64,000 nt of DNA from NCBI RefSeq assembly GCF_032362555.1, contig NC_083529.1, positions 1 to 64,000 on the forward strand, written 5' to 3'. Below the pieces are notes generated by a model. That model was not told the origin of the DNA. It worked only from the letters and a program-made list of their open reading frames with translations, and did not search any database. How positions within the stretch are numbered: the first letter of the stretch is position 1; each line of letters starts with the position of its first letter. The DNA comes from Amyelois transitella (lineage: Eukaryota > Arthropoda > Insecta > Lepidoptera > Pyralidae). A program made the translations under genes and the position numbers. Shown piece by piece: positions 1-37,666 of the stretch.

Positions 1-1149
1 CTTCCCGGCTGATAGCTCGGTTGTCCGCTGCACAAACCAGCCGAAACTAACACGGAATAAGGACTGACTGGTGAGGAACAGAGTGGCATAATAACTGGAG
101 GCCCACTGAGTCGGAAGGCCCGGTAAAGGACGTCGAGAAGAGAAGGGAGTGAGGCGATAGACGAAATCTGGAGTCGGAGCGTGCTTTTCGGCGGTTTGGT
201 GGGTTTGGGCGAGGGGCTGAAGGTGCTGATCGGTGTAGGACCTGTCGAGGGCATCACCTCCCGAAAACCATCGGGATCGGGTCGCGGGTTTGGCTACCAG
301 AACGAAAACTGTGATCAACCAATCAGCGAATTTTCCAAAATTGCCGCTCAACCCACGGGAACTGTGAACCAGACGTACCGGGACTGGACCTGCCAACTGC
401 GAACGGGAATTTGTGGACTTGGATCACTATCCTGGGACACTCCGGAAGCCAGCAGCGGAGGTTTTTCTTCCCGGAATCGGCGAATGACGACTTCGCGGGG
501 ACAAAATAGGACCTAGGATAAGGAAATTTCATGCTGAAAATATACGATTCGAGGGATCGTTTACCCCCCCAGCACCCACAAAAATTTGGTTCAGATTGGA
601 TCGGTAATTTTCGAGTTATAAATTATTTTCTCCTTAGGCTCTTAAAGCAGTTAGCATTTATCGTAAATATAAACCCAAAATTGACTTTTTAAACAGACTC
701 TTTTTCAAAATTTAAACCCTACAACCCTGTAAAGGCGAGCAGAAAAATAGATTTTAAAGTGATACTAAAACCCAAAACCCCCCCTAACATCCCCTAATCG
801 ATAGGCAAAAATCGAAAACCAAGAGGTCACTAAAACAACCAATCCCGGTCCCCTAGGGTGGAGTCTTTTACTAATTCTCATCCCTGATCATCCCTAATCA
901 GTCTGGAGTGAACCATCCCTCGAATTTTACCCCTTTAATTAAGAAACCAACAGAGTTTGCAGTTGGCAAAATAGTAAATAAATAGAAAACCGCTTGTAAT
1001 TGCATTAAAAAATTAGTATTAGTATAAAATTCAACCAAATAAAGTAAGAACAATTAAATATCTGGACTATATCAAATTGTAAAAACAGGAAGGCCTATAG
1101 TTTTTAAGAAAATCTATAAACTGTGTAAAGTGGAAATAGGCCTAGACCG

Positions 1150-1302
1150 CAATTACAAAATTGTAACGGGTGAGCGACAGAAGGCATCGAACGAGCCTAT
1201 TGTTCTCGGCTCGCTAAGGAATGCCAAGGTCGTGCACTCGAGCCGTATTATTGTTGCTTTGCGCGGGTTCCTTCCTTACGGGGTAGACAGAGCCTAACAA
1301 AC
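1150..1302 (+). repeat. 5' UTR repeat unit, copy 1 of element 1
   Basis: Shares TATTGTTCTCGGCTCGCT, the following GGAATG and a terminal GTAGACAGAGCCTAAC with the unit at 1433-1612 and with two units in element 2. It lacks the GTGCGGCCGTCG start of the other copies. The function is unknown; in R1-clade elements the 5' UTR normally holds the promoter. Confidence 0.7.
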
Positions 1303-1432
1303 TTAATTCTAAATAATAACTTAAAGCAAAATTTTGTAGTTGTAGCTTGTAGTACAATATTGAACTAGTCAATTATTATAAAACCGCTAAATAGGTATGA
1401 ATTAAATATTAAATAGATACAAAATAGGTTGA

Positions 1433-1612
1433 GTGCGGCCGTCGACCGCTCCGCAGGTCACGCCTCCCAGTGACGTAGTAGACGGCATTCCGCCAGCCTA
1501 TTGTTCTCGGCTCGCTGTGGAATGCTATTGTCTCGGCGTTGCGTTTGTTGATATCGGAGTGCATGAAGTGTATGGGACCTTTGCGGGTTGGACAGAGCCT
1601 AACAAGAAAAAT
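1433..1612 (+). repeat. 5' UTR repeat unit, copy 2 of element 1
   Basis: Begins GTGCGGCCGTCGACCGCTCC and ends GACAGAGCCTAACAAG. It is closely similar to 9971-10143 and 9671-9842. Read on the minus strand, its end resembles the GGCTCTGTCTACCCCGCAAGG core of dispersed repeats in the unique half of the window. Confidence 0.75.
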
Positions 1613-2025
1613 TAAAATCTTAACTTTTAGAATATCATAGGGTGGAATATGGTTTAATATATGGTTTTTAATACTACAAAAATAGTAAATAAAATATAAA
1701 ACAAGAAATAGGCATAAAAAATTGACAATTAGCAAAATATAGGTCGGCATTATTAATTAAGTTGACTCGTATAAATTACGGCGGCACCTATTGGCTAAGT
1801 GATTTAAATTGTATTAGCTTAAGTGTTTTACTATTTATTTATTTATTTACACATCTACATATTGCAGCCCCCATATACAGGGCTGCAACTAGTATTGACG
1901 TTGATTGTTATTCATCAACTTTTAAACTTTATCTTTACTCTCTGCTTTTAACTTTACTTTTACTTAAATTTTACTTTTACAATATATATATACAACTTTT
2001 ACAAATTTACTTTTAACATATTAAA

Positions 2026-3414
2026 ATGATACGAACACCCAGGTCGGTGACTTTTAAAAAGCCACTGAATTACTGCGACAACAACACATCGCCCACTGAA
2101 TTGCCTAGCGACTCCTCAATAGATTCCTCCGCTAGATTACCACCAGAGGAAGAGTGGGCCACTCCCAACACAAGAAGAAGGGAAAGATACTTGCAATATC
2201 TTCCTAACACACCCTACCTTAAAGAGGGAGAACGCATGAAAATATTGACGGATGACGATAGGGATGAACTTTGTGGTCGCATCCGAGGCCTCCTTAACGA
2301 CATGAAGGACGAGGTTGAGCACGCGCTAAGGCTCAAGAGAGCTACAAAGGACTCCATCCAGAGCAAGATAAGAGAGGTGGATGACCTGACGTGCGACCTG
2401 GCAATATATCAAGAACTGAAAAATCTCACGCCGGGTCAACGTCCTAGTGTGCGAACACAGACCTCCCCTATCCCTCAGGAGGCGATAAGCAACATTGACC
2501 TGAAGGACTTCCTGAAGCCACTGATGGAGAGGCTCGAGGAGAACTCCAAGGACATACAGGAAATTAAAAAACTGATGGACCACCGGAGTCAAGACAACTT
2601 ACCCGCAACAAAAAATCCGCAAACATACGCACAGATTGCAGCCTCTTCTCAGGAAAAGCCCGTCACCCTTCATTCCGTTATTGTCGACGATAAGACAGGA
2701 ATGGACACGGGTGACGTGGTTATGGAACGGATAAGAGAAGTGGCAGGTGAGGGCGGAGATTGGGTGAAAATTGAAAGGGTGAGGAAAACGCGTGACAGAA
2801 AGATAATAATAAGTTGTGAAACAAAGGAAGGCAGACAGAAACTCAAAAATAGAATAGAGAAAATAAATAATTTGCAAGTAAAAATAGTAGAAAATAAGAA
2901 CCCATTACTCATCCTCAAAAATGTACTAAAACACACAAATGAGCAAATAATATCAAAATTAACGGGGCAAAATAGAAAAATATTTAATGATCTCAAGGAA
3001 GAGGACAAAACCATTGATATTAAGTTTAGGAAGAAGGCAAGAAACCCTCTACTGGAGCACACCGTAATCAGTGTCCCCCCAAAGCTGTGGCGCGCGCTGG
3101 TTGAGACCGGCTCAGTGCGCATCGACATGCAGCGGATCCAGGTGGAGGATTATTCTCCCCTGGTTCAGTGCTCGATGTGCCTGGGCTACGGTCACGGTAG
3201 GCGCCACTGCAAAGAGAAGGTGGAGAGGTGTTGCCATTGCGGCGGAGAGCATCAGAGGGCGGTGTGCCAGGGCTGGATGGCGGGAGCCGTCCCATCATGC
3301 CTGAACTGCCGCGCGGACGGGAATGCGGTGAGCAATCACAATGCGTTTAGTTCCGCGTGTCAGGTCAGGCAGAGGTGGGAGGCCCTCGCCAGGTCCAGAA
3401 TAGCATACGCGTGA
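2026..3414 (+). CDS. SART-type ORF1 (gag-like) protein, element 1, 462 aa
   Basis: RNA-binding gag-like protein that would package retrotransposon RNA and, by analogy with SART1 ORF1, carry it to telomeres. The N-terminus (1-60) is Ser/Thr/Pro-rich. A charged helical part (about 66-135) is followed by a TQT motif at 144-146 and a short coiled-coil-like stretch (about 160-190). A conserved central domain (about 215-375) aligns with the ORF1 of the complete SART element. Three zinc knuckles close the protein: C382/C385/H390/C395, C402/C405/H409/C414 and C425/C428/H438/C445. The start ATG follows AAA and matches the start of the sister copies. There is no ORF2 downstream. Only one frame is open across the whole 1.39 kb. 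Confidence 0.9.
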   Translation: MIRTPRSVTFKKPLNYCDNNTSPTELPSDSSIDSSARLPPEEEWATPNTRRRERYLQYLPNTPYLKEGERMKILTDDDRDELCGRIRGLLNDMKDEVEHALRLKRATKDSIQSKIREVDDLTCDLAIYQELKNLTPGQRPSVRTQTSPIPQEAISNIDLKDFLKPLMERLEENSKDIQEIKKLMDHRSQDNLPATKNPQTYAQIAASSQEKPVTLHSVIVDDKTGMDTGDVVMERIREVAGEGGDWVKIERVRKTRDRKIIISCETKEGRQKLKNRIEKINNLQVKIVENKNPLLILKNVLKHTNEQIISKLTGQNRKIFNDLKEEDKTIDIKFRKKARNPLLEHTVISVPPKLWRALVETGSVRIDMQRIQVEDYSPLVQCSMCLGYGHGRRHCKEKVERCCHCGGEHQRAVCQGWMAGAVPSCLNCRADGNAVSNHNAFSSACQVRQRWEALARSRIAYA

Positions 3415-3564
3415 GCGTTAATTTCGCGTATCTACCGGCGTGTCGTGGCTGTCCGGTATTGGTATTTTGATAAATCGCATTATTAAAAGTGGCAATAATC
3501 TGGGGCAAGTTGCGGCGCGTTGGTGGAAACCCACAGCGGAATTCCGTTCGCGACAAATACATAG

Positions 3565-3602
3565 GGGTGGCTCCGCCTCAGCGGATAATAAATTATTCTC
3601 TG
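3565..3602 (+). other. Conserved 3' UTR stem-loop, element 1
   Basis: About 150 nt after the ORF1 stop, CCTCAG and CTGAGG enclose an AT-rich inner stem. The same position holds a stem of different sequence in the sister elements, preceded by GTGG(C/T)T(C/T)CG. This suggests a selected RNA structure. Confidence 0.6.
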
Positions 3603-4392
3603 AGGTGAAGATTTACCCTTTGGTTTTTATGCTTATATAATACTGGTTTTATAATTTATACAATTTTATAGTAGTAATTAATTATAACATATTTGACAAT
3701 AATAATAGATATTCAATAGAAGGCTAAGAATAAAGATAAAGAAACCTGACCTGGCAGTGTGATATTAGTCAATAAGTTAATAAATAAGATGACGAAATTG
3801 TTTTACAAGAATACAAATATATTAACCAATACAAATATATATATGATATCAGTAAATAAGTTAGTAAATAAGATGACGAGAAAAATTTGTATACAATATA
3901 ATGTAAAATTTTTAAGAGAACCAATAATTAAATTTTAAGAATGTACCCTATAGAAAAACATTATGAAGTAGCAAATCATGCTCTTAGTAGGTGCAAAAAT
4001 GTAAATAATTAACATAGTGACCAATATCGACAAATAATAATAATTTAAAGTAAGTAACAAATGTTGACAATACTACTCTGCGCGATCCAACAAATATGTA
4101 ACTATTGGGTCGATAAGTAAGAATAAAATAGCAATAAGTATAGATTAGCTCCTGGAAATAGTATCACTATTTCTAGGAGCTAATTTATACTTACTTTACT
4201 AGCTAGTACTATAATAGAGAAACAACAATATGTAGCATAAAAAGTAATGTGTATATCCAAATATTATAAGTAGATGGAAGGAAGTATTATAAGAGTAGTG
4301 TTAAGATAAGTTTATGTTTTAATCATATATTATGTCAACAAAAATGTTTAAAAATGGCTCTGATAATGTTAGAGGGATATTGGCAATAAACT

Positions 4393-4420
4393 CCCCCTGG
4401 GTGCGGTGTAACACCTGGGG

Positions 4421-4421
<1 letters not shown>
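4393..4421 (+). other. 3'-terminal hairpin, element 1
   Basis: CCCCC and GGGGG arms enclose a G-rich/ACACC inner stem directly upstream of the poly(A). It is present in all six gag-only copies. It is probably the reverse-transcriptase recognition end, as the 3' UTR is known to be required in SART1. Confidence 0.7.
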
Positions 4422-4456
<35 letters not shown>

Positions 4457-4498: not shown

Positions 4499-4845
4499 TT
4501 TTTTTTTTTTTTTTTTTTTTTTAACGTGTGGAAAGACCTTCGTCTACCCGGCCGGCTACGGGAAGTCGGTCGGGTTATGTGGGGCTTGAACCCACTAAAA
4601 CCACACGGTGCCATCGCCTACCGCTTCGTTGCCAGGAGTGTGAGCTGCCCTCGCTCATACTCCTGACGCGGCGGCCGCTTCCACGGCGGCCTCGGCTCGG
4701 CCGCTCTCCACTGAGCGGCCAGCGGGGTGACCCGTCGGCCTTCAATTCTACCCGCTAGAGGAGGGCGCGCCTGGCACAAGCGCGCCTTCGACCCAGGGCC
4801 GTTTCGCCAGGCAGCGGAATCCCGTTTCCGCCGCCCGACCGGCCC

Positions 4846-7800
4846 TTATTGTGGGGGCAGCAGGTGCAGGGCGTATGCCCGCCTCCTGCGCCCAGTGCGC
4901 CGGCGGCGTATGGGGAGGTCGGACGTGTCCTCTCTCACCCTTTCCGCCGCCTCTTTGCGGAGCATGACGCTCTCCGCAAAGGTCTGCACTGCTGTCCACG
5001 ACCTCTCGCTGTCGACCATCTGTCTCACGACAGCCGGCAGAGAAAGGTCGTCCCCCACGACCGCGCGAAGCTCCGCACGGTCTTGGTCCCAGGCTGGGCA
5101 AACCTCCAAGGTGTGCTGGGCGTCCTCGTCAGCACATCCGTCACAGTGGTGGCAGACAGCAGACGGCTCCCGACCGATCAGACACAGATACCCTCCGAAA
5201 CAACCATGTCCGGAGAGCATCTGGGTCAGACGGTAAGTCAGGCTACCGTGCTGCCTCGCCAACCACTGTCCCAACACCGGACGGACCGCCTCGACGGTTC
5301 TACGCCCAGCAGTCGGCTGCTCCAGCCTTTGGGACCACTCTTCAATGGAGCGCTGACACAGCTCATTGCGGCGTCCTGCGATCTCCCTCGGTGCTAACCG
5401 GTGACCCTGGGCCACGGCCTCCTCGCGCCAGAAGAACAGCGACGCGAGGGTTTTCGCCTCTAGGTCCCAGGGAATGGAACCGGCCAGCACAGACGCTGCC
5501 TCAAAGGAGATCGTGCGATATCCCCTTGCGGCTCTCGTCGCCATCAGCCTCTGTGGCCTCCGCAGGGAGGCGAGGTTTTGGCGAGAGAGCGCATCCGCCC
5601 ATACGGGGGCCCCGTAAAGGGCTATTGATCGCACGACCCCCATGTACAAGCGCCTGCAGGACGCTTCTGGACCTCCCAGATTCGGCATGAGCCGAGTCAG
5701 CGCTCCGGCCGCCGTCGTCACGCGCGGCGCTAATTCCGCGAAGTGGGCGCCGAAGTTCCATCTGCCATCAAGAACGATGCCCAGGTAGCGCATCGATTGC
5801 TTGATGGCAATTGAAACACCTCCAACCGTCAGACTGGCGTCTGCAGGCGGCTTCCTCCGAGGGCCATGGAAGCACAGCGCCTCGGATTTGTGGAGAGCCA
5901 CCTCCAGACCCAGTCGACGGATCCGGCGCACCACTTCAGCGACTCCCGCAGTGGCGAGCAATGACGCCTCCCTATATGTGGCGCCGCGGGCGGTCACGAG
6001 TGTGTCGTCCGCGTAGCAGACGACCTCCACCCAGGGCAGAGTGACCGTCCGCAGCACCCAATCGTAACCGATGTTCCACAGGAGCGGTCCTAAGACAGAA
6101 CCCTGTGGAACACCGCGCGTCATTGAACTCTTCGTCCAACCGTTTCGGTCAGGGAAGATTATCCATCTCTCTGAGAGGTAGTCCTGGATGACCCGACGCA
6201 GGTAGGTCGGCACCCCATGGTATCGGAGTGCCTCCACAATGCAAGACCAGGGGAGGGAGTTAAAGGCGTTGGCGATGTCCAAAGACACCGCCACGACCAC
6301 CTCACCCTGGGCAACCGCATCCTGCGCCAAGGACTTCACCCTCAGCACGGCGTGAATCGTCGACCGCCTCCGGCGGAACCCGTATTGGCGATCCGCCAGG
6401 TCCGGTCCGACTCTCTCCAGGTGCTCGACGAGGCGGTCAGCAATGACCCTTTCCAGCAATTTGCCGGCCTCATCGAGCACGACGAGGGGACGGAACCCGG
6501 TCGGAGAATCCGCCGGACGTCCCTCCTTCTGCAGTAGGACTAGTCGGCCCACTTTCCACGCCGCGGGAAACCTTCCCTGCTCGAAACAGGCTGTGAACAG
6601 CCCCCTCAGCCGTTCCCCCAGAACGTCCAGAGCGAGGACGAGGGCACGACCCGGAACTCCATCAGGACCCGGGGCGACGTTCTTCGCACGCAGCCGTGTA
6701 ACGGCTGCAGCAAACTCATCCCGGGTCACCTCCGGGATCGCCTCCACGCCCTCGCTTCTTTCCGCCAGTGGCGGTGCCATACTGGGGGGCTGAAAGGCCG
6801 CTCCCTGCGGGAACAGAGCGGCCACCACCTCACCGAGGAACTGCGGATCCAAGGTCCGCGTCAGGGGGGCCGCATACGGCCGGAGCTTATTCCGGACCAG
6901 CCGATACGGGCGCCCCCAAGGATCGCGGTCCAAGGTACCCAGCAGCTCCTCGCGTGCTGCCTCCTTGGCAGACGCTATCGCGGTCCTCAGCGATCTCTTC
7001 GCCTCCACTAGTGTCGCGCACAAGGCGGCCTCTTCGGACTCGTCCCTGCGCCTTCTCCTCCGGTATCGGGCGTACTGGCGTCTAGCCCTGAAACAGGCTT
7101 CTCGCAGACGCGAGAGCTCGGGCGACCACCAGTACACCCACCTTCTGGGAGGACGAGTACTGGCCCGGGGCATCGAGGCGTCGCAGATTTCTGCTAACGC
7201 GCCCCGGAACCACTCGGTTTCGTCCTCTACCACCACATTCGCCGGCGCACGGGACCAACCTTTTACAATGGCCGCCTCGCGGAGAAACTCCTTGTCGAGG
7301 CGCTTCAGCTGCCACCTCGGGCCAGCCTCGTTCGGAGTTCGGCTTGGGCCGCTCGGAGCGACCGAGGACGCGGAGAGATCAAACCGTATGTAACGGTGAT
7401 CAGAGAGCGTCTCCACGTCCTCCAACACGCTCCAGCCCTCGACACGGCGCGCTAGGTCTGGGCTCGCGAACGTAACGTCCGGTCGCGAGCTACCGTTCCA
7501 TCGCACGCACGTGGGTGCCGTCCCCCGATTCACTACCGCTAGCCCGTTAGTGATGAGCCACTCCTCGATAAGTGCACCCCGCGCATCTGTTGCGGGGGAT
7601 CCCCATGCCGTTGATTTGGCATTGAGATCTCCAGCAACCAGCACGGGGAGAGGGTGACTCCTCAGGACCAGCGCCTCGACCTGGGTCAGGAATGACTCGA
7701 ACTCGTTGAGCGGACGGTTGGGCGAGAAATAAACTCCAACCACAACCAAGTCACCCAGACGAGCCGAGACCATTCCATGACCTCGCACGACACATGTAGG

Positions 7801-7992
7801 AGGCGAAGAGCTCGCCGAAGACACGATCGCCACCGCACTGTCTTCGTCCCGCACCCAGTTATCCCGGGGCGGGATGAAGTACGGCTCAGAGACCACCGCC
7901 ACGTCTATCAACCACTGCGCCATGCTCTGACACAACAGGTCCTGTGCACTGGTGCAGTGGTTTATATTCGCCTGGAGAACTTTGAGGGCCAT
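4846..7992 (-). CDS. TRAS-type ORF2 polyprotein (endonuclease + reverse transcriptase), TRAS-A, 1048 aa
   Basis: Makes the telomere-specific nick and copies the element RNA by target-primed reverse transcription. The APE-type endonuclease is at about 1-220, with N9 (LQANI), E36 (SEPY), GDLN at 121-124, D172 and SDH at 197-199. The reverse transcriptase is at about 440-720, with catalytic YADD at 660-663. A C-terminal CCHC-like motif follows (C947, C950, H960, C965). There is no RNase H domain. The ATG at 7992 lies just after the double stop of ORF1 (TAATAATTATG), so termination-reinitiation is likely. No internal stop or frameshift is seen. The sequence is GC-rich, unlike the AT-rich gag-only elements around it. 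The copy lacks most of ORF1 and so is probably not autonomous. Confidence 0.93.
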   Translation of the reverse strand: MALKVLQANINHCTSAQDLLCQSMAQWLIDVAVVSEPYFIPPRDNWVRDEDSAVAIVSSASSSPPTCVVRGHGMVSARLGDLVVVGVYFSPNRPLNEFESFLTQVEALVLRSHPLPVLVAGDLNAKSTAWGSPATDARGALIEEWLITNGLAVVNRGTAPTCVRWNGSSRPDVTFASPDLARRVEGWSVLEDVETLSDHRYIRFDLSASSVAPSGPSRTPNEAGPRWQLKRLDKEFLREAAIVKGWSRAPANVVVEDETEWFRGALAEICDASMPRASTRPPRRWVYWWSPELSRLREACFRARRQYARYRRRRRRDESEEAALCATLVEAKRSLRTAIASAKEAAREELLGTLDRDPWGRPYRLVRNKLRPYAAPLTRTLDPQFLGEVVAALFPQGAAFQPPSMAPPLAERSEGVEAIPEVTRDEFAAAVTRLRAKNVAPGPDGVPGRALVLALDVLGERLRGLFTACFEQGRFPAAWKVGRLVLLQKEGRPADSPTGFRPLVVLDEAGKLLERVIADRLVEHLERVGPDLADRQYGFRRRRSTIHAVLRVKSLAQDAVAQGEVVVAVSLDIANAFNSLPWSCIVEALRYHGVPTYLRRVIQDYLSERWIIFPDRNGWTKSSMTRGVPQGSVLGPLLWNIGYDWVLRTVTLPWVEVVCYADDTLVTARGATYREASLLATAGVAEVVRRIRRLGLEVALHKSEALCFHGPRRKPPADASLTVGGVSIAIKQSMRYLGIVLDGRWNFGAHFAELAPRVTTAAGALTRLMPNLGGPEASCRRLYMGVVRSIALYGAPVWADALSRQNLASLRRPQRLMATRAARGYRTISFEAASVLAGSIPWDLEAKTLASLFFWREEAVAQGHRLAPREIAGRRNELCQRSIEEWSQRLEQPTAGRRTVEAVRPVLGQWLARQHGSLTYRLTQMLSGHGCFGGYLCLIGREPSAVCHHCDGCADEDAQHTLEVCPAWDQDRAELRAVVGDDLSLPAVVRQMVDSERSWTAVQTFAESVMLRKEAAERVREDTSDLPIRRRRTGRRRRAYALHLLPPQ

Positions 7993-7997
7993 AATTA

Positions 7998-8219
7998 TTA
8001 AGAGGCCCCCGTTTCCATCGCCTCGGCGCTCTGAGCCGCACGAGCAGGCTGCGTCTGGGCCGTAGCCGCGGACGCACCCCGCTTCCCACCTCTCCTTTTT
8101 TTATTTTGGCGCGTGCTGGAGCACGCCTTGCTCCCCACGCGGTGCCCCGTCGGCTTGCCTGCCCCCGCGCACAAGATGCACTTGGGGGCGGCATTGCACG
8201 CCGCGGCCTTGTGACCCGA
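7998..8219 (-). CDS. TRAS-A ORF1 (gag), C-terminal 73 residues only
   Basis: An open frame enters from the telomeric junction and ends in TAA TAA directly before ORF2. It keeps the last part of a zinc-knuckle region (GHKAAAC, then a C-x2-C and a final H-x6-C) and a Lys/Arg-rich stretch followed by an Ala-rich tail. A run of seven A on the coding strand keeps the frame open. The N-terminal roughly 570 residues expected from TRAS-B are missing through 5' truncation. Confidence 0.75.
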   Translation of the reverse strand, partial: SGHKAAACNAAPKCILCAGAGKPTGHRVGSKACSSTRQNKKRRGGKRGASAATAQTQPARAAQSAEAMETGAS

Positions 8220-8307: not shown

Positions 8308-9670
8308 GAGTTGCGCTCTGTCCGCAGTACCGAGCGCCACGAAAGTAAACCGCTCCGCGCTCGAAAATAATTAAAAAATCATCTTTTGACGAATTTCCAC
8401 AAGTGCAATATATTGTTGGATCCGCGCTATTGTGTACAAACGAACAGTGAAAAAATACTACTACGGTAAACAAAATAGTTATAATAAAATAAAGTTGCGG
8501 GCTAGACGCCTCCTCGCGCTTCGCCGCCTAAAACTCGCGATTTATATCGAAAAGTTTGCGAACTGGAACTGTGGAAGTGTGGGCAGTGACGTCGACCTTC
8601 CCTGTGCGGAGTCCCAGATTCCTGCGACCGAAGACGTCGACACAGCGAGACCGTTTGTTGGAGCCCCCGAAACGCAAATCTTTTTCCCGTTAAGCAGCTC
8701 GGTTGCCCGTTGCGCTATAAAACTAAGATTAGGACTAAACAAGGGCCGATCGACAAACAGCTGAGTGGAGTATTCACCAGGGTCCGGCTGCAGTGGGAAA
8801 CCGGGCTACGGACGTCGGGAAGCGGAGGGAGCGAAGAGAACGGGCGTTGGAGGGCGTCCTTCGGCAGATCGGTTGATCAGGGTGAGGAGCTGCATACGCC
8901 AACCTGTGAGGGACCGGTTGAAGACCTTACGTTCCAAAAATTAGCAAGATCGGAGTAAGGGTTTGGCGTCTACAACGAAAAATACAACTGGAAAAAAAGA
9001 AAACAAAGAAGAAACCGTCGGTTATCTGCATTAAGAGCTAGTGATAGTTACAAACCTTATTGAAATTAGAAAGGACTATAAAACATCAAAATTATTCTTA
9101 ACTGTTAAAACTGAGACATCTATAGTTTTTAAGTAAATTGACAAATTGTAAACGGTCGAAATAGGCCTAGACCGCAAATAAAAGTTTGTAACAAGTTTGC
9201 AACGGGTGCGCGGAGTGGGGACAGCAGGTGGCTATCGACCCATTACGTATCGCGGTGCGCAATAGAGGCAATCGCGATAAGCTACACACGCATACGGTCC
9301 ACACATTATAACCGCCAAATCGACTGAGAACATTTAAATAGGTATTTCTCGGACCTTATTGACTTACAAAATAAACCTTAAGACCTATAAATCAGATAAA
9401 ACACGGAATTACATACACAAAACACATAGTTCAAAAAATTTTTAATTCAACATAACTACATCATCAAATAAAACTAAATCGACAAATTTAAAAGGCCCAT
9501 GAAATATATAAAAAATATAGACACACATTCTCTTTAACATACAAAATAAAAAATAGCCAATATTATCAAAATTATTAAAAATTGTATTAATAAAATAGTA
9601 AATAGACCAATAAAGCAATAGTAATAATAAGCCCATACAAACTCATTTTAGTGTATATTAAACCGATACG

Positions 9671-12873: not shown

Positions 12874-12937
<64 letters not shown>

Positions 12938-26042: not shown

Positions 26043-26071
26043 AAAACTTAAAAAAAAAAAAAAAAAAAAAA

Positions 26072-28049: not shown

Positions 28050-28086
28050 TTCGCACTAACGAATAATAATTATCCGTTGGTGTGAA
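28050..28086 (+). other. Conserved 3' UTR stem-loop, element 5
   Basis: TTCGCAC pairs with GTGTGAA (one G-U), then TAACG with CGTTG, around an AT loop. It holds the equivalent position to the stems in the other copies. Confidence 0.65.
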
Positions 28087-28560: not shown

Positions 28561-28735
28561 GTGTCGGTGGTTGAATTACAATAAGTAATTCAACTACCGA
28601 CATTTGTCAGTGTTTGTTTTATATTGACATGTGTCGGTGGTTGAATTACAAAAAGTAATTCAACTACCGACATATGTCAGTATTTGTTTTATATTGACAG
28701 GTGTAGGTAGTTGAGTTATAATAAGTAAAAAAAAA
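28561..28735 (+). repeat. Tandem 70-bp repeat, each unit a hairpin, in the 3' UTR of element 5
   Basis: Two and a half units. In each full unit TGTCGGTGGTTGAATTA is followed after a few bases by TAATTCAACTACCGACA, giving a near-perfect 17-bp stem. The third unit (from 28701) is decayed and loses its 3' arm. I do not see it in the other five copies. Confidence 0.8.
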
Positions 28736-28967
28736 TAAAAAATATGACCATATTGAAATATGAAAAGAATTAATATTGAATAGTTAAGTAAATGACTGTA
28801 CAACATAGGAAATGACTGTATAACATAGAACTAAGATAAGATTTTAAAAATTGTAATAGAAGCAGACTCTATGTATAGTTTTATGTTAAGATAGTTTTCG
28901 TATACCATGTAAAAAACCATGTCAAACAATGTCTTTGTTTACGACAGAGAGATGCTGGAAATAAACT

Positions 28968-28996
28968 CCCCCCGGGTGTGGTGTAACACCCGGGGG
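28968..28996 (+). other. 3'-terminal hairpin, element 5
   Basis: CCCCCCGGGTGT pairs with ACACCCGGGGG. Compared with element 2 the inner pair is G-C where element 2 has G-U, which keeps the stem. Confidence 0.72.
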
Positions 28997-29027
28997 AAAA
29001 CTAAAAAAAAAAAAAAAAAAAAAAAAT

Positions 29028-29086: not shown

Positions 29087-29135
<49 letters not shown>

Positions 29136-29333
29136 TTCTCGTAGGAGGAAACCCATTTACAGGCGACCCAGGGGAAGGGGATCTCCCCTGGAGTGTGGGA
29201 CTCCCGGGTCGCTAATCGGCCCAGACTACCCACTAAAACCTCCTACGGCGTTTCCGCACCAGCCGTTGTTGGGGGCGCCGTGGGATCGCAAGCATTCTAC
29301 CACGACGCCCCCCGGTTTCGCCTTACGGCGCGA

Positions 29334-32300
29334 TTAGGGTAAACGGCGGGCGTATTGCGCCCGCCGTCTGCCTCTTCGTCCTCGCCGGCATGGGAGCGCT
29401 TCAGCTCTCGCTTCACGCTCCCTCTCAGCGGTCTCCTTCTGCGACATTACCGTCTCGCAGAAGCAGGACATCGCGTCCCAGCATCTCTCGCTGCCCAGCA
29501 TCTTACTGACGATGCAGTGCAGCGAGAGATCGCGGTCGCCCAGGGCCACTGCTAGGGCCACCCTTTCTGTGGCCCACCTCTCACATTCTGCCAGGGTGTG
29601 TTGAGCCGTGTCGTCCGGCTCCCCACACTCGTGGCAGACCGGGCTTGGCTCTCTGCCTATTGTATGCAGGTAATGACCGAAGCACCCGTGTCCGGTCATC
29701 ACCTGCGTCATTCTGTACGTCAGTTGGCCGTACTTTCTATCCATCCAATCTTCGAGCGATGGGAGGAGCGCCCCGATGGTACGTATACCATACTGGGAGT
29801 TTTCTAGCTCATCTCGCCACCGCTCTTTCAACCTGTCTACGGCCAACTGACGGGCCCCTCTCACTTCTCTTGGGGCGGGCCTTTCCCCGAGAGCTCGTCT
29901 TCTCGCCCGCTCCCAATAAACCTCCGCCTGAATTTTTGCGTCCATGTCCCATGGTGGGGTGCCGGCCAATACGCATGCCGCCGCCCAAGCCACCGTTACG
30001 TAGGCCCGAGCTATGCGGTTGGCCACTACTCTTTGTGGCCTTCGCAGCTGGGCCACGTTGGCTCTGGAGAGCTTATCTGCCCAGATTGGCGCCCCATATA
30101 GTGCCATGCTCCGGGCTACGCCCGCATATAGTTTCCGGCACCGGGCGCTAGGCCCTCCGACATTGGGCAGCAGCCGGCCCATGGCCGATGCTGCGCCGAC
30201 TATCCGGGGTGCTAGTTGTTTAAAGTGCTCCCGGAAGTCCCAGCGTGGGTCCATGGTTATGCCCAAGTACTTAATGTACGGCTTCACCTGGACCCTTTCC
30301 CCACCTATTGGAATGGACGCTCCCTCAGGCGGTTTCCAGCCCCTTTTGCCAAAGACGATGACCTCGCACTTGCTGAGGGCCACCCTGAGCCCCAGCAGCC
30401 TGACGCGGGTGACCATCAGGTCTGCTGCGACTGCAGCTGTCCTGAGGGTGCTCTCCAGCTTCTCACCCCAGATGGCCACCATCGTGTCATCCGCATAGCA
30501 GATGACGGTCATCCGGGGGAGTAGGCTCCCGCGGATGGCCCAGTCAAAGCCGATGTTCCAAAGCAGGGGTCCTAGCACTGACCCCTGAGGAACACCGCAG
30601 GTCATCGCCCTGGCTTTCCTCCCTTCTCTGTCCTCGTAGAGCACCACCCTCTCAGAGAGGTAGTGCCCTACGAGGTTTCTCAGATAGAGAGGCACTCCGT
30701 GGTATCGGAGTGCCTCCTTTATTACCTCATATGGGAGGGAGCCGAAGGCGTTTGCGATGTCTAACGAGACACCCACGGCTCCTCCCTTCCTTTTTATTGC
30801 GTCCTCCGAGAATTCGCGGAGGGCCCCTATCGCATCAACGGTCGACCGCCCTTTTCTAAAACCAAATTGGCGGTCCGACACGTTTGGTCCGACATTTTCC
30901 AGATGCTGGATAATTCTGGAGGCGACAATTCGTTCCAGCAGCTTACCAGTCTCATCCAGCATCAGTAGGGGCCTCCATCCCGAAGGGGAGTCCTCGGGTC
31001 GGCTCTCCTTTCTGAGCAAGCAGAGTCTTCCCTCTTTCCACGGCCTGGGAAACCGCCCAGACGACAGACAGTCGTCGAATAATTGTCTGAGGCGGCTCCC
31101 GAGGTGTTTTGCGACCACCGGTAGAATCAGACCGGGGACGCCGTCCGGGCCTGGTGCCTTTTTGCAGGCTGTCAGACGCGTCATACCCCGGTCGAACTCA
31201 TCATCCGTCACCGGTGGCACTGGGGCCGTGGTGGACTCCCGCTCGGGGACCTGCATACTCGGAGGAGCAAATTCTTGGGCCGAAGGGAAAAGGCCTTCAA
31301 CAATTTTATTGAGGAGGTCCGGTTCCAAGGAGGCCGTGGGGGGGGCGTGGCGCATTTTGTTGCGAACTATCCTATATGGCCTCCCCCATGGGTCCCTGTC
31401 TAGCGTGGCCAGAAACGCTTCATGGGCGTCGTCTTTCGCTTTGGCAATTGCTACCGACAGGGCCTTTTTGGCCTCCTGGAGGGCAGAATAGAGTCGGGCC
31501 TCCTCCCCGTATTCGCGGTTGCGCCGCCGCCTGCATCTGGTGTATTCCCTGCGGGCACGGTTGCTGATAGATCTGAGTACAGCGATGTCCTCAGACCACC
31601 AGTGTACCTGCCTTTTAGCAGGCGGCGGACCAGACCTCCTCATGGATGCGTCGCACACCTCAGTGAGCGACGCGCGAAAGCCACGTGCCCTTTCCTCCAC
31701 ACCAAGGGAGCGGCTTGGTATGGGTTCTCTCCACTCTATTATCATGGCAGCCTCTTCAGCCAGGTCCCTGTTGAGGCTAGCCATATTCCACCTGGGGAAC
31801 CCCTGACGTCTCCCTCTGCCTCGAGTGGGCTGTTGGGAATGGGGCGTATTGGAGACCGACATCCGTATGTAGCGGTGGTCGGAGAGGGTCTCCACGTCCT
31901 CCAGGACGCGCCAGTCCTCAATGCGTGCAGCAATACTCGAGGTCGCGAGCGTCACGTCCACTATCGAGGCACCATTTCGCCGCACGCATGTGGAAGTGTT
32001 GCCCCGGTTTAGGACTTCAAGCCCCATTCCCACCGCCCAATCATAGAGTGTTACCCCTTTTGGGCTGGTTATGGGAGAACCCCACGCAGAGTGTTTGGCG
32101 TTAAGGTCTCCCATTAGCATGATCGGTGTCGGCGCCGCACCCTCGACCACTTGCCCCACTCTCTCGAGGAGGCGCTCAAAGGCACGCAGCGGTTCATTGG
32201 GGGAGAAATATGCTGCGACAATTACAATATTTCCCCATTTCACCGCTACGTACCCCCTGCCGTTCTCAATCTTCGAGAGAGGTGGGCGATTGCCAGTTTG

Positions 32301-32495
32301 TGGGATGGTCACCGACACCAGCCCTTCTGTGTCTCCAGCCCAATTAGGGAGGGAGGGGACGCAATAGGGTTCCGATATGACGGCAGCGTCAATGCCCCAC
32401 TCCGCCAAGTGCTGGACCAAGAGGTCTTGAGCACGAGCGCAGTGGTTGGCATTGGCCTGCAGCACCTCAAGGCGGGGAGCAGGCCGTACCGGCAT
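29334..32495 (-). CDS. TRAS-type ORF2 polyprotein (endonuclease + reverse transcriptase), TRAS-B, 1053 aa
   Basis: Endonuclease at about 1-225, with N15 (LQANAN), E42 (SEPY), GDLNAKHSAWG, and SDHRYI near 205. Reverse transcriptase has catalytic YADD at 667-670 and the GVPQGSVLGP motif before it. The C-terminal cysteine motif is C954, C957, H966, C971, followed by an Arg-rich tail. There is no RNase H. The start ATG shares its A with the ORF1 stop (TGATG), the stop-start overlap used for translational coupling in related elements; SART1 is known to use TAATG. No frameshift is seen. Confidence 0.94.
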   Translation of the reverse strand: MPVRPAPRLEVLQANANHCARAQDLLVQHLAEWGIDAAVISEPYCVPSLPNWAGDTEGLVSVTIPQTGNRPPLSKIENGRGYVAVKWGNIVIVAAYFSPNEPLRAFERLLERVGQVVEGAAPTPIMLMGDLNAKHSAWGSPITSPKGVTLYDWAVGMGLEVLNRGNTSTCVRRNGASIVDVTLATSSIAARIEDWRVLEDVETLSDHRYIRMSVSNTPHSQQPTRGRGRRQGFPRWNMASLNRDLAEEAAMIIEWREPIPSRSLGVEERARGFRASLTEVCDASMRRSGPPPAKRQVHWWSEDIAVLRSISNRARREYTRCRRRRNREYGEEARLYSALQEAKKALSVAIAKAKDDAHEAFLATLDRDPWGRPYRIVRNKMRHAPPTASLEPDLLNKIVEGLFPSAQEFAPPSMQVPERESTTAPVPPVTDDEFDRGMTRLTACKKAPGPDGVPGLILPVVAKHLGSRLRQLFDDCLSSGRFPRPWKEGRLCLLRKESRPEDSPSGWRPLLMLDETGKLLERIVASRIIQHLENVGPNVSDRQFGFRKGRSTVDAIGALREFSEDAIKRKGGAVGVSLDIANAFGSLPYEVIKEALRYHGVPLYLRNLVGHYLSERVVLYEDREGRKARAMTCGVPQGSVLGPLLWNIGFDWAIRGSLLPRMTVICYADDTMVAIWGEKLESTLRTAAVAADLMVTRVRLLGLRVALSKCEVIVFGKRGWKPPEGASIPIGGERVQVKPYIKYLGITMDPRWDFREHFKQLAPRIVGAASAMGRLLPNVGGPSARCRKLYAGVARSMALYGAPIWADKLSRANVAQLRRPQRVVANRIARAYVTVAWAAACVLAGTPPWDMDAKIQAEVYWERARRRALGERPAPREVRGARQLAVDRLKERWRDELENSQYGIRTIGALLPSLEDWMDRKYGQLTYRMTQVMTGHGCFGHYLHTIGREPSPVCHECGEPDDTAQHTLAECERWATERVALAVALGDRDLSLHCIVSKMLGSERCWDAMSCFCETVMSQKETAEREREARAEALPCRRGRRGRRRAQYARRLP

Positions 32496-34426
32496 CAGTG
32501 CTCCATGGCGCGGCCCTCCGAGGCCTCGGTCGTTGCCAGGGCCGATTTGCCTCTTATGCGAGGGGGGTTGCAGGCTTTCCCCCCCATGACATGTCCTGGC
32601 GGCAGTTTAGCGGCATGGCACACTGCACACCATGGCTCTTTGACCTGGCATTCACCAGTGGTGTGGCCCGTTTTGCCGCAGCGGTGGCACATCGATGATC
32701 TGTCCACCGGGGATGGACAGAGGGCCCTAGTGTGGCCCATGCCCATGCAGCGGAAGCATCGCATGGGCAGGGCTTCAAGCCCTTTGACTTTGGCGGCCGA
32801 CCATCCGACCAGGAGGCGTCCGATCTCTATGAGAGAGTTGGCAGCCGCCACAGGGCAGGTTAAAATGGCTGCCCCAGTCTGGTCTGGCGCCATACGGATA
32901 GCGCCAACCTTAATTTGCCCCGGTGGGCATTTCCCAGCTGCAGCTGCAGCTTCTCTGAGGGCCTCCAGGGTCACTGCCTCATCGAAGCCGGAGACCTTGA
33001 CTTGTGCCGTTTTATACGGCCGAGATATCTCCGCTTCGTTGCCTATCAATTCCCGGACCTTCTCAGCAAGAGCGTCCGCTGCGGCCCCGCTGTCTGCTCC
33101 AGGAACCTCTATTATCCGAGCCCCCGTAGCACTCCTGCGCACCGAAACATGGTCCACCCCAATGGACGGCAGTTTGATGGTGGTGACCTTGGCCATTATC
33201 GATTTATAGTCCATATCGGACTCCGGCTTCAGGGTCACCACCACCGCTGCTGACTTCGGTGGGGTGAATGCCTTCCTTGGTGGCGGTTTTGCTGCCGCTT
33301 TGGGGGCTTGGGTTGGTTTCCCCTTCCCTTTTCTTTTCCCTTTTTTCTTTTTGGCTACTGTTGTCCACACCTCCGTGCCTCCGGGGTTCGGAGACGCCTC
33401 AGTGGGAGGTATTCGGGAGGGGCCTGGCGTTGGCTCACGTGGCCGAGCTTTGGTTTTGGCCTTGGCCTTGGCCCTGGTTTGCGGCACCGGTCCGGGTCTT
33501 GCAGGTGGCATGAGGGTTGACCCTGTGTTGCCCTCCCTGCCATCTAGATCCCCAGCTTTTTGTTTTTTTCTGTCAGCCGCCAGTGGTGGGCGCAGAATTG
33601 GTTCTGGGGCGAGTATGCCCCTCTTTTCGGCTTCATTCAACCGGGTCGTCACCATTTCTCCTATTTTGAGGAACAGGTTCCTCTCAATGGACACCTCAAG
33701 CTCTTTAAGGACGTCCTTGATTTCCGCCATTGTGACTGGTCCTGAGGTGGACGGCCCGGTAGATTTTTCGGCATAGGCCTTCCGAAGAGCCCTCGTCTCC
33801 TGTTCCAGCTGCGCCAATTGCTCCCGCATCCTTCTGTTGTCAGCAGTCAGAATTCTGACTGCTGCCGACTCCTCCTGGTGCATTTCTATTTTATCAGCTG
33901 CATCTAAGATGTGCTGACAGGCATCCTTCATGGATCGCCACACTGTGCCTTTGAGGTTGCCGGATTTACCGGCTTCCTCCAGTACATTCCCAACAGACGT
34001 CCGTACAACGTCAAGTTGTTCGTCAACGATGCTGCTGGCGGGCTTGGGTGGCGATGTCTGTGTGCGCCGACCAGCGTGACGGCCCCTCGTAGCTGTGTTA
34101 ATTTTGGGGCCTCGCGATCTTAGTGCAGACCCCTCCAGTGCCTTCCGTTTACGGGGAACACTGCCCCCGTCGTTCTTGTCATCCTCCGTCATGATGACCT
34201 CCGGAAGGCTATCATTGTCCTCGTCGGATGTCGGTGCGAGGATCAGTGACCCTCGGCTTGTCGACCGTGTCGACAGTTGGGAGGGACTTGCGTCCCTCTG
34301 GCGGTAAGTGCCCCCCCCAGATACGGTGGGGCAGCCCACGCCCGAAGGCGTGGGGAGGGATTCTCCGACTCCTTGGGAGTCGGTACCCTCCTGGGGTATG
34401 ATCGTTTTCTTAGACGCCATATTCAT
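32495..34426 (-). CDS. TRAS-type ORF1 (gag-like) protein, TRAS-B, 643 aa
   Basis: Gag-like RNA-binding protein. The N-terminal 200 residues are disordered-looking, with a basic PRKRK cluster (91-95, possible nuclear signal) and a RRTQTSP motif (TQT at 122-124). A coiled-coil-like segment (about 185-225) is followed by a long Pro/Lys-rich linker containing KKKKGKRKGKGK and a conserved domain at about 390-550. Three zinc knuckles follow: C557/C560/H565/C570, C580/C583/H588/C593 and C600/C603/H612/C619. The stop overlaps the ORF2 start by one base. A second in-frame ATG two codons in is an equally possible start. Confidence 0.92.
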   Translation of the reverse strand: MNMASKKTIIPQEGTDSQGVGESLPTPSGVGCPTVSGGGTYRQRDASPSQLSTRSTSRGSLILAPTSDEDNDSLPEVIMTEDDKNDGGSVPRKRKALEGSALRSRGPKINTATRGRHAGRRTQTSPPKPASSIVDEQLDVVRTSVGNVLEEAGKSGNLKGTVWRSMKDACQHILDAADKIEMHQEESAAVRILTADNRRMREQLAQLEQETRALRKAYAEKSTGPSTSGPVTMAEIKDVLKELEVSIERNLFLKIGEMVTTRLNEAEKRGILAPEPILRPPLAADRKKQKAGDLDGREGNTGSTLMPPARPGPVPQTRAKAKAKTKARPREPTPGPSRIPPTEASPNPGGTEVWTTVAKKKKGKRKGKGKPTQAPKAAAKPPPRKAFTPPKSAAVVVTLKPESDMDYKSIMAKVTTIKLPSIGVDHVSVRRSATGARIIEVPGADSGAAADALAEKVRELIGNEAEISRPYKTAQVKVSGFDEAVTLEALREAAAAAGKCPPGQIKVGAIRMAPDQTGAAILTCPVAAANSLIEIGRLLVGWSAAKVKGLEALPMRCFRCMGMGHTRALCPSPVDRSSMCHRCGKTGHTTGECQVKEPWCAVCHAAKLPPGHVMGGKACNPPRIRGKSALATTEASEGRAMEH

Positions 34427-34943
34427 GTGTTTCCTTTTTTTTTAACAGGGTGAGGTCCCTGAACTCCTCCACCTCTTCAGTGGGCGCTTGGGACGGGGCT
34501 CCCCCCCCGCCATTCATCCCATCGGCACGCCCGACCTTGGGATTAGGGTTATTTTTTATTGAGGTTTTCTTCCTCGCGACAAACGTCCTCGGCCCCATCA
34601 ATTTGGGGTAACGAGTTGCCCGGCGCCGAGCCGAAACCTGACGCCGCGCGAGCCACATCCACTCACTGTCTGAGGGCAGACAAGAGGGAGCAACTGGTAG
34701 ACGGACCTGGACGCAAAAGCGTCTGCCCAGAAGCCGGTTAGGCTATTCAGCCCGTCCATGTGTCAGGACATTTGCCGATGGATAACAAGACCCCTAATAG
34801 CGGGGAGTTATTAACCATCGCCCAGGGTGCACCAGCCCAGTGTCTTGTCAGCCCGCCGCTATCACCGGATCAAAGATCAAGCAACAGAAGCAAAGCTTTC
34901 AAGGTACTGAGCCAACGTGGAGGTTTCCTGACCGTAGCACCCC

Positions 34944-34967: not shown

Positions 34968-35386
34968 AGTCTGCTTCGAGCGCTCGTCGAGTACAGACGT
35001 GCTCCGGTGCGCTCTGCAAAATAAATTTGCAAAAAATAAAAAATTATTGTGAAAATCAAATAAATTTGTGTAGCAAAGTGTTCTGTGTTGTGGCAAGTGT
35101 ACCAAGATACCGGGAACCCTCAAAATCTGGACAGGATCGAGCGGATTTTCCGGATTTGCGACGAACCAGACCAAAATTCAGGACAGACCCTTGCGCAAGG
35201 TGAGCGCGTGGATTTCCTTAACGCCTAAGTCAGGCCCTCGTATCATTATAAGAACCCATCGGTTTAAGGAATTTTAATTATACACTGTTTTAAATTTTTG
35301 ACTCCTACCTCCATCTTTCTAACTTTATACAATATATTGTATATTCTCAATATCTTTACAACTTTTACAAATTTACGTTTTAAATC

Positions 35387-36790
35387 ATGACAAACCCAAG
35401 ACCAAAGACCGTCACCTTTAATAAAACCCTCAATTACAATGAGGATGACACCCCCTCACCCACTCAGATTCAGAGTGACTCGTCCTTGTCGGATTCCCCC
35501 TCAAGGGAACCTGCCGTGGAATGGGCCACCCCCATAACAAGAAGTAAATATATTCAGCATTATCCCAGAACGCCGCTTTTAAGAGAGGAGAATCGACGGA
35601 AGATACTGACTGACGATGATAGGGACAGGTTGGGTCGCAACATCCGAGATCTCCTGGAGGCAGCTATCAACGAGGTGGAAACTGCGCTGAGACTGAAGCG
35701 TACGACGAAGGATTCAGTCATACTAAAATTAAGAGAGGCGGATGACCTGGTGTGTGACTTAGCAGTCTATCAGGATTTGCAGAATCTCACGCCGGGCCAA
35801 AACCCAAGCGTACGCACACAAACTTCCCCTGCTCCTCAGGAAGAGGAAAAACAAGAAAAACAGGAGGACATGACGAAGTTCCTAAACATGTTGGTCGATC
35901 GACTCGACGAAAACTCCAGGAGCATAAAGGAGCTTAAGGAGTCGATCGACAACCGGAACGAAGCAGGAACAGGCGCAGCCACACATGCTCCAACCTACGC
36001 ACAGATTGCAGCTACAACGAAGGAATTGCCCGTCACCCTACACTCCGTGATTGTCACCGACAAGAAAGGAGTGGAGACGGGTGACGAGGTGTTGGATAGA
36101 ATACGGGACATAGCGGGAGAAGGCGGGGAATGGATACGAATTGAGAAAGTTAGGAAAACCCGAGACAGAAAATTAATAGTTAGTTGTAAAACAAAAGAGG
36201 GTAAGGAAAAATTAAAGGCAAGAATAAAAAACATCGATAAATTAGAAGTCAAGGACGTTGATAACAAGAACCCCCTCCTTATTTTTAAACATATAATAAA
36301 GTGCAACACAAATAAAGAGATTATTGAAAAAATAGTAGAACAAAATAGTAAAATTATTCGAGAATTGGAGGTGGACGAGAAAAACATAATAATCAAATTT
36401 CGCAAAAAGTCCAGGAACCCGCTGTTGGAGCATGTTGTGGCAAGCGTCCCCCCCAGGATGTGGCGTGCCGTGGTCGATGCCGGCTCAGTGCGCATCGATA
36501 TGCAGCGGATCCATGTGGAGGACTATTCTCCACTGGTCCAATGCTCGATGTGCCTGGGCTACGGCCACGGCAGGCGCCATTGCAGGGAGACGGTCGAGAG
36601 GTGCAGCCACTGCGGTGGGGAGCACCAGAGGGCGGCGTGTCAAAGCTGGATGGCGGGAGCCGTCCCATCGTGCCTGAACTGCCGGGCAGACCGGAGCGCG
36701 GTAAGTGATAATCACAACGCCTTCAGCTCTGCGTGTCAGGTCAGGCAAAGGTGGGAGGCTCTCGCCAGGTCCAGAATTGCATACGCGTGA
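35387..36790 (+). CDS. SART-type ORF1 (gag-like) protein, element 6, 467 aa
   Basis: A complete frame. It has the same order of features as the sister copies: N-terminal MTNPRPKTVTF, the ATPITRSKYIQHYPRTPLL segment shared with element 5, VRTQTSPAPQ with the TQT motif, a coiled-coil-like part, the central domain, and zinc knuckles beginning at C386. In the second knuckle CCHC is replaced by CSHC, which still fits C-x2-C. The third knuckle carries one extra residue, as in element 5. Confidence 0.9.
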   Translation: MTNPRPKTVTFNKTLNYNEDDTPSPTQIQSDSSLSDSPSREPAVEWATPITRSKYIQHYPRTPLLREENRRKILTDDDRDRLGRNIRDLLEAAINEVETALRLKRTTKDSVILKLREADDLVCDLAVYQDLQNLTPGQNPSVRTQTSPAPQEEEKQEKQEDMTKFLNMLVDRLDENSRSIKELKESIDNRNEAGTGAATHAPTYAQIAATTKELPVTLHSVIVTDKKGVETGDEVLDRIRDIAGEGGEWIRIEKVRKTRDRKLIVSCKTKEGKEKLKARIKNIDKLEVKDVDNKNPLLIFKHIIKCNTNKEIIEKIVEQNSKIIRELEVDEKNIIIKFRKKSRNPLLEHVVASVPPRMWRAVVDAGSVRIDMQRIHVEDYSPLVQCSMCLGYGHGRRHCRETVERCSHCGGEHQRAACQSWMAGAVPSCLNCRADRSAVSDNHNAFSSACQVRQRWEALARSRIAYA

Positions 36791-36949
36791 GTCTGGTTTT
36801 GTGGTATCTCGGGCGTGCCGCGGCACACCGATTGCAAAGTTGATGAAATATAGGTCATTAAATGATGCAATAATGACAGGCATGCTGCGACACGTGCGAG
36901 AAAACCGGAAAACAAGACTCGGCTCACATGATAATGCACAGGTGGCTCC

Positions 36950-36979
36950 GCATCAGAAAATAATTTATATTTGCTGACG
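36950..36979 (+). other. Conserved 3' UTR stem-loop, element 6 (weaker)
   Basis: GCATCAG and CTGACGC bracket an AT-rich loop after GTGGCTCC. One mismatch is present, so this is the least perfect of the six. Confidence 0.5.
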
Positions 36980-37604
36980 CGTAAACACATAAAGTGCAAT
37001 AGTATGTTAGAATAGTATAATTATATATAAGGGATTTTAATTGGGTGATTTAGTATCTAAGTAGTTATAAGTATACATATACCTGTTTTAAAAGTTTTTG
37101 ACTCGATAATTTTTTATCCAAATAATGATAATCAATGACGGTAGAATTTTAATAAAAGACGGCTGTAAGATAAATATTTGACAAGTACCCTGTATATATT
37201 AAGCCGATGACTAAGAAATTGCAAATCATGCTCATTAATAATAAAAGAGTATAAACGAAGTTGATTAACGAATATTTAGCAGTAACCACAAAATTAGGTA
37301 AAATAAAATAACAAAGACGTGACAGAATGTGAATACATAGAAATAATTGTTATAAATAGATAAAAATGACTCAAGTAAGAAAATAATGTTTGTAAATGTT
37401 GCAAATAGGAACTAAGATAATTGATAAAAAATATGTTATGTATAAAGTTATGTTTTATAAGTAAATGACTAATAAATCACTATTGTATTACAAAGAAGCA
37501 GACTAAGTGATGTATTAAGTTAAGTTTTAGTTTATCGCATATTCTGTAAATAATAGCGTCTTACAATGTCTCTGTACCCTTATAGAGTGTTACTGCAATA
37601 AACT

Positions 37605-37633
37605 CCCCCTGGGTGTGGTGTAACACCCGGGGG
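37605..37633 (+). other. 3'-terminal hairpin, element 6
   Basis: CCCCC[T]GGGTGT pairs with ACACCCGGGGG, the family end structure, directly before the poly(A). Confidence 0.72.
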
Positions 37634-37666
37634 AAAACTAAAAAAAAAAAAAAAAAAAAAAAAAAA

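Follow-up and report, generated by a model that had tools for sequence, protein, structure and literature searches.

The gag-only design, in which a non-long terminal repeat (non-LTR) retrotransposon keeps gag and has no polymerase of its own, is known from the telomeres of Drosophila, where telomerase is gone; HeT-A, found there, has a sense promoter in its 3′ untranslated region (UTR). In the sections cited here, HeT-A and HTR are portrayed as telomere-specific, gag-only elements with a long 3′ UTR, another element being the presumed source of their reverse transcriptase (RT) (PMC4700185, PMC10088271, PMC5537684), and HTR as gag-only half elements at Drosophila telomeres (PMC10088271). TRAS elements, as the cited section describes them, carry a second open reading frame, ORF2 (PMC5563155). 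Here we report on six plus-strand elements, E1 to E6, in a window of 64,000 nucleotides (nt) from Amyelois transitella (RefSeq assembly GCF_032362555.1, contig NC_083529.1, positions 1 to 64,000 of the forward strand). The window is the start of the contig that we call C25, and the genome searched comprised 327,366,114 bases in 33 contigs. E1 to E6 very probably belong to a long-lived, recently mobile gag-only family of telomeric non-LTR retrotransposons (the E family), derived from TRAS or adjacent to it within the R1 clade, and mobilised in trans. While gag-only telomere elements were known before, a TRAS-like version within TTAGG repeats appears to be new; no published account of a gag-only TRAS or SART was found among titles and abstract openings of a mainly open-access literature. 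The anatomy and evolution of the family are well supported; its mechanism is a proposal.

Like HeT-A and HTR, the E family combines gag without RT and a long 3′ UTR, and at chromosome ends its poly(A) faces the centromere. However, HeT-A and HTR belong to the Jockey group, whereas the E-family ORF1 appears TRAS-like; they attach to the chromosome ends of a telomerase-less genome and form head-to-tail arrays without telomerase repeats, whereas the E family inserts within TTAGG repeats at an endonuclease (EN)-type site and is embedded in (AACCT)n, its junctions being fixed, in a genome that encodes a telomerase domain. This domain (Telomerase_RBD, the sole telomerase domain sought) gave one match above the cut-off, on contig C22 (54 bits, in a frame of 712 amino acids [aa]), and none in 14 control genomes. 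The gag-only design of the E family is best read as having evolved apart from that of HeT-A, the two being alike in design. TRAS elements share insertion site, strand, junctions and ORF1 relationship with the E family, which differs from them in having no ORF2 of its own with EN and RT; SART, also a telomere-specific R1-clade element, differs in strand and site. In mammals, HAL1 (half-L1) is likewise a derivative of a long interspersed nuclear element (LINE) with ORF1 only, but it belongs to the L1 group and is not telomeric, whereas the E family is telomeric and outside that group. Fungal elements of the MoTeR2 and FoTeR type are telomere-targeted like the E family but differ in RT group and coding content, and MoTeR2 needs a partner.

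In each of E1 to E6, an open ORF1 is followed by a 3′ UTR of 852-1115 nt, at the end of which AATAAA and the terminal hairpin precede poly(A), which passes directly into (AACCT)n (Table 1). The first-pass annotation of this DNA had described six plus-strand elements with ORF1, about 1 kb of non-coding 3′ UTR and poly(A), and all are present with the right-hand ends it gave; the common terminal hairpin that it reported is complete in five, but in E3 the poly(A) starts within the hairpin, which has lost its 3′ arm. Its account of the reading frames stands: the complete ORF1s of E1, E2, E3, E5 and E6 are open over 462, 467, 467, 468 and 467 codons from Met, and the truncated frame of E4 is open too. 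The two types of 5′ end that it distinguished are likewise confirmed, long in E1 and E2 and short in E3, E5 and E6, that of E4 being lost; the 5′ end of E1 is unseen because base 1 is the first base of the contig. ORF2, which it had found missing from all six, was not detected in 11 UTR pieces searched by tblastn with the four ORF2s of the window (best E value, 0.13). Homology among the elements continues past the ORF1 stop into the 3′ UTR, and the junction between ORF1 stop and UTR is therefore common to them. A Pfam search gave zero family matches for the six ORF1s. They are labelled gag because of the position of ORF1 and three conserved zinc-knuckle motifs, whose Cys and His positions are invariant in seven proteins (the six ORF1s plus that of FL, an autonomous TRAS-type element of the window); TRAS-type ORF1 has zinc knuckles. 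An AlphaFold model of the E3 ORF1 (mean predicted local distance difference test, 56.1; predicted template modelling score, 0.32) was too weak for a fold search.

Across the genome, the 32-nt core of the terminal hairpin occurs in 59 exact copies (0 for a reversed control). Forty-six are no more than 150 kb from the start of a contig or from the end of one whose length is known (4 elsewhere; 9 not judgeable), and 45 of these have the 5′ end facing the telomere. With the E3 ORF1 as query, the best 91 of 531 candidates were scored; they lie on 26 of the 33 contigs, 87 of them without a stop in the matched frame, and all 69 near judged contig ends point 5′ toward the telomere and poly(A) toward the centromere (15 not judgeable, 7 away from contig ends). 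A scored ORF1 ends 799-2113 nt upstream of 35 of the 59 hairpins. For the ORF2 queries, the best 38 of 4782 and the best 38 of 4639 candidates were scored. No ORF2 among these 76 places lies in a hairpin-bearing element: eight hairpins have a scored ORF2 within 6 kb upstream (the nearest ending 2434 nt away), and at all eight, each of which was read, it sits in a neighbouring element with telomeric repeats between. The 35 loci read gave 44 family places after overlaps were merged, window included; 37 have telomeric repeats on both sides, and 35 of the 37 carry the hairpin. The first-pass annotation had proposed a genome search for hairpin-sharing copies with ORF2, and no own ORF2 was found in any of these 37 segments (one of them read in part). 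One segment (L035) consists of two copies head to head, and a 1.2-kb insert in the 3′ UTR of another (L042) holds the single RT match among them, a fragment ~25% identical to the window ORF2s. No match to ORF1 was obtained at three read hairpin sites outside the 37 (L016, L021 and L043), and the opposite strand of L043 gave a distant match to RT.

The gag-only elements carry a TRAS footprint, being inserted on the CCTAA strand in the order AACC/element/poly(A)/AACCTAACC. The right junction poly(A)/AACCTAACC was found in 31 of 35 cases (TAACC in 1; 3 not parsed), with ambiguous A's assigned to the flank, and 27 of 28 left flanks end in AACC. The cited section of the SART1Bm study reports that TRAS1 EN nicks TT^AGG, that TRAS elements lie on the CCTAA strand and SART on the TTAGG strand, and that an EN domain swap redirects insertion from the SART site to that of TRAS (PMC7265360). 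Since EN exchange is known to change the target site, the footprint points to a putative TRAS-type helper, which could equally be of the FL type or of the R7 type (Table 1). In an ORF1 tree, which carries a long-branch warning and was computed without Jockey or HeT-A proteins, the gag-only ORF1 falls together with those of two TRAS-type elements on the plus strand (support, 96/100). The E3 ORF1 has no match at 1e-3 to the ORF1 of M2, a SART-oriented element (the reverse search gave a 74-aa match), and M2 ORF1 matches FL ORF1 over 93 aa only. On insertion site, strand and ORF1 relationship, E1 to E6 are TRAS-type, as far as sequence can assign them. The first-pass annotation had called the ORF1 SART-type, having swapped the labels; membership of SART, whose insertion point is between T and A of the TTAGG strand, was rejected, as site and strand are wrong and ORF1 similarity points to TRAS-type elements.

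Selection on gag, proposed by the first-pass annotation from the open frames, is borne out by the ratio of nonsynonymous to synonymous substitution rates (dN/dS), which is far below 1 in all informative pairs of ORF1 copies. Among the six ORF1s, all 15 pairs gave values of 0.10-0.25 (NG86 and maximum likelihood for all pairs; YN00 for 11). Among 31 distinct complete ORF1s (L040_4903 and L015, whose ORF1 is not open, being excluded), 458 of 465 pairs were informative by NG86 (2 undefined, 5 with dS ≤0.02) and 0 had dN/dS ≥1. Median dN/dS was 0.055 at dS 0.02-0.1 (3 pairs), 0.116 at dS 0.1-0.3 (14 pairs) and 0.08-0.16 in higher bins, for pairs that are not independent and with dS often saturated. 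By this measure ORF1 is under purifying selection, and the close pairs show it at work in elements that had already become gag-only.

The RNA of the gag-only elements has a conserved predicted structure. A hairpin ~150 nt past the ORF1 stop shows 10 pairs changed on both sides in 27 distinct copies, with 52 cells of two-sided changes against a shuffled mean of 18.8; its covariation score was reached by 0 of 500 shuffles, while 23 matched or exceeded the number of two-sided pairs and 9 that of further pair types. Covariation in the terminal hairpin is weak, most of its pairs being unvarying. In 27 of 28 short-type elements, a site 141-158 nt from the hairpin end has complementarity to the first 9-10 nt, in 21 over the full available length; the near-identical L026 and L030 show a compensating change from T-A to C-G, L018 has a G-U pair, and the ORF1 of the lone exception, L040, is also not open. 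With G-U allowed, the best alternative site in the same 3′ UTR pairs at 7-9 of 10 positions, and in shuffled UTRs of E3, E5 and E6 the observed unbroken Watson-Crick run was reached in 0-4 of 300. No such match was found in E2, which is of the long type. This complementarity suggests that short-type RNA may pair its 5′ end with its 3′ region, although an antisense initiator, or some other signal at the DNA level, could also account for it.

Separate, near-identical copies point to recent mobility. In each of eight pairs compared (96.2-100% identical), the two copies are told apart by their telomeric spacer, their neighbours, the length of poly(A) and/or extra letters at the 5′ end. The copies L009 and L014, on different contigs, are 99.85% identical over 2656 nt, yet their left spacers, poly(A) tracts and 5′ extra letters are not the same; E1 and a copy on C31 show full identity over 3471 nt but have different right-hand neighbours. 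If the family is mobilised in trans, its RNA would be transcribed and then polyadenylated after AATAAA and the terminal hairpin, and ORF1p, with its three zinc knuckles, would be made from this RNA, bind it and package it. The ORF2 protein of another, TRAS-type element would nick TT^AGG on the G strand and, as helper, reverse transcribe the gag-only RNA in trans, leaving the poly(A) toward the centromere. The family may also take part in telomere maintenance.

The likeness to HeT-A drawn by the first-pass annotation survives, with no own ORF2 in the copies read and dN/dS far below 1, and the question is which origin and mode of spread explain the family best. It is scarcely credible that the six arose from an autonomous element through chance deletions: although a chimera of gag-only and FL sequence on C4 shows that joins occur, a single ORF1-stop/UTR junction runs across divergent copies, the UTR hairpin covaries and selection persists among close gag-only copies. 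Independent deletions were rejected on the common junction and the UTR structure. That reverse transcription played no part, and copies passed between telomeres by gene conversion or unequal exchange, would fit arrays with repeats in common and the long identity of E1 with the C31 copy, but is highly improbable given the fixed junction register and the ways in which near-identical pairs differ. It is also improbable, if a little less so, that ORF1 is kept for a host telomere function rather than for retrotransposition; the low dN/dS and the presence of scored copies on most contigs would suit that, whereas poly(A), TRAS-type junctions and conserved UTR RNA structure fit a transposing element. 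The alternative with the most in its favour, though still unlikely, is that the family is driven by a rare sibling, comparable to TAHRE, which carries ORF2 besides this ORF1 and 3′ end, the gag-only form being its abundant derivative. A second gag-only family, fam2 (described below), shows such a pairing with R7-like elements, and with the best candidates scored and 52 of the 59 hairpin sites covered (40 read, L047 included, and 12 more with a scored ORF1), there is room for such a sibling elsewhere. Among the scored ORF2 places, however, none is in a hairpin-bearing element, and no such sibling appeared in the loci read, bar the C4 chimera, which has the FL 3′ end.

Several points weigh against a gag-only family mobilised in trans. 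A rare ORF2-bearing sibling could have escaped notice because scoring was confined to the top candidates; in addition, 7 of the 59 hairpin sites were neither read nor tied to a scored ORF1. The E-family terminal hairpin is in 0 of 5 TRAS-type 3′ ends (FL, L038, L044, L045 and L046), so that recognition of the gag-only RNA by a helper is unexplained; a 3′ end in common with a TRAS helper was sought in these five and found for fam2 and R7 but not for the E family. Lastly, two chimeras that might hint at the helper RT lie side by side on C4 and could equally be deletions or assembly joins. The first (L013) joins 2002 nt of gag-only sequence (87% identical to E1) to 2312 nt identical to FL, and ends in the FL 3′ end, not in the gag-only terminal hairpin; short microhomology at the join is possible, but the closest relative differs at that spot. 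The second, a 310-nt element with a single full copy (G000:C4:13174236-13174545), is identical to E-type 5′ ends over positions 1-120 and 98% identical to R7-type 3′ ends over positions 119-310. Template switching and deletion could each produce both chimeras, which were accepted as suggestive only, not as proof of a helper.

The gag-only state seems to have been reached here on at least two occasions, because fam2 arrived at it from R7-like autonomous elements. Five telomere-flanked segments of 2.0-2.9 kb represent this family, with a distinct ORF1 and no ORF2; the ORF1 is 504-512 aa in the four measured (the frame of L010 is broken) and 81-88% identical to that of ORF2-bearing R7-like elements, with which fam2 has a 3′ hairpin around ATCAAATAGC in common. 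Aligned in 16 sequences, tiny inserts and two other types included, this hairpin has two-sided changes at 10 of 18 pairs; its covariation score was reached by 0 of 500 shuffles and its number of pair types by 156. Among the best 82 of 695 fam2 ORF1 candidates, which were scored, none has a scored R7-type ORF2 starting within 500 nt, and all 54 that were judged for orientation (28 were not) face the telomere with their 5′ end. Five fam2 ORF1s, L009 included, gave dN/dS of 0.06-0.14. The pairing of fam2 with R7 resembles the relation of HeT-A to TAHRE; the E family, unlike fam2, has no ORF2-bearing partner in sight. We consider it rather probable, with less assurance than for the E family itself, that, in a genome still encoding a telomerase-like protein, at least two TRAS-group lineages independently lost ORF2 and became abundant, selected gag-only elements, one sharing a 3′ hairpin with its partner and the other without a visible partner and Gag-recruited, its RNA maybe closed 5′ to 3′. 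If so, losing the polymerase and keeping gag would be a recurrent outcome at telomeres rather than an oddity of Drosophila. Its occurrence in another LINE clade, among TTAGG repeats and beside a telomerase domain, would uncouple the gag-only state from telomerase loss, and the reason for keeping gag alone would become directly testable. The helper could be tested too, as the cited section describes a trans-mobilisation assay in which SART1Bm proteins mobilise RNA with the SART1Bm 3′ UTR (PMC7265360).

Table 1. Gag-only elements, their RNA features and autonomous elements in the window
Feature	Position	Strand	Description
E1	1..4456	+	gag-only, long 5′ UTR type, cut off at its 5′ end by the contig start; (AACCT)n after 3′ UTR, hairpin and poly(A)
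E1 ORF1	2026..3414	+	462 aa
E2	8308..12937	+	complete gag-only, long 5′ UTR type; telomeric repeats at both flanks
E2 ORF1	10490..11893	+	467 aa
E3	13060..15939	+	gag-only, short 5′ UTR type; terminal hairpin without 3′ arm
E3 ORF1	13551..14954	+	467 aa; 91 scored genome-wide matches
E4	23945..26071	+	gag-only, 5′-truncated within ORF1; frame open over 408 aa
E5	26084..29026	+	complete gag-only, short 5′ UTR type; ORF1 26483-27889, 468 aa
E6	34968..37666	+	complete gag-only, short 5′ UTR type; ORF1 35387-36790, 467 aa
Post-stop hairpin	12033..12097 (E2 copy); homologues at 3560, 15095, 25308, 28038, 36935	+	covariation
Terminal hairpin	12836..12880 (E2 copy)	+	directly 3′ of AATAAA; consensus fold
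5′-terminal AGTCTGCTTC of E5	26084..26093	+	complementary to GAAGCAGACT, 141 nt from hairpin end
FL	15947..23857	+	TRAS-type autonomous; ORF1 18444-19895; ORF2 frame 19870-23574 (EN, RT, RNase H)
R7	37699..41525	+	second TRAS-like ORF2-bearing element, 5′-truncated; candidate helper family
M1	4500..8218	-	SART-oriented, ORF2 (EN and RT); GGTT/element/poly(A)/AGGTTAGG
M2	29088..34943	-	SART-oriented, ORF1 + ORF2; SART site

The four ORF2-bearing elements of the window differ in their similarity to the EN of silkworm TRAS1 (PDB 1wdu), which is matched by the EN of FL at 1.4e-68 and that of R7 at 1.5e-25, and more weakly by the minus-strand elements (3.8e-17 and 6.7e-12); M1 and M2 are both located at the SART site. 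A helicase domain is known from moth TRAS elements. On C14, C30, C31, C20 and C2, the TRAS-type ORF2s of a group sharing 46% identity with FL lie in open frames of 2026-3404 aa, perhaps with an added C-terminal domain, for which a helicase is a candidate. Other tiny telomere-flanked inserts of 274-310 nt (L031:5241-5514 and L009:4004-4313) end in R7-like 3′ hairpins and may be truncated copies. A third ORF1 type (L020:1-4489; ORF1 at L020:2237-3916, a frame of 560 aa) has no ORF2 before the telomere; its 5′ region holds tandem repeats of 516 nt, and it is possibly another gag-only family. In the long-type 5′ UTR, a unit of ~150-240 nt occurs twice in E2 and is common to E1 (1406-1606, 9655-10209). 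A 16-bp satellite, TAACCTAACCCGCCGG, is repeated perfectly ~57 times at positions 41548-42457, on the inner border of the telomeric zone, and comparable satellite-like units come after the telomeric repeats at some of the other loci read.

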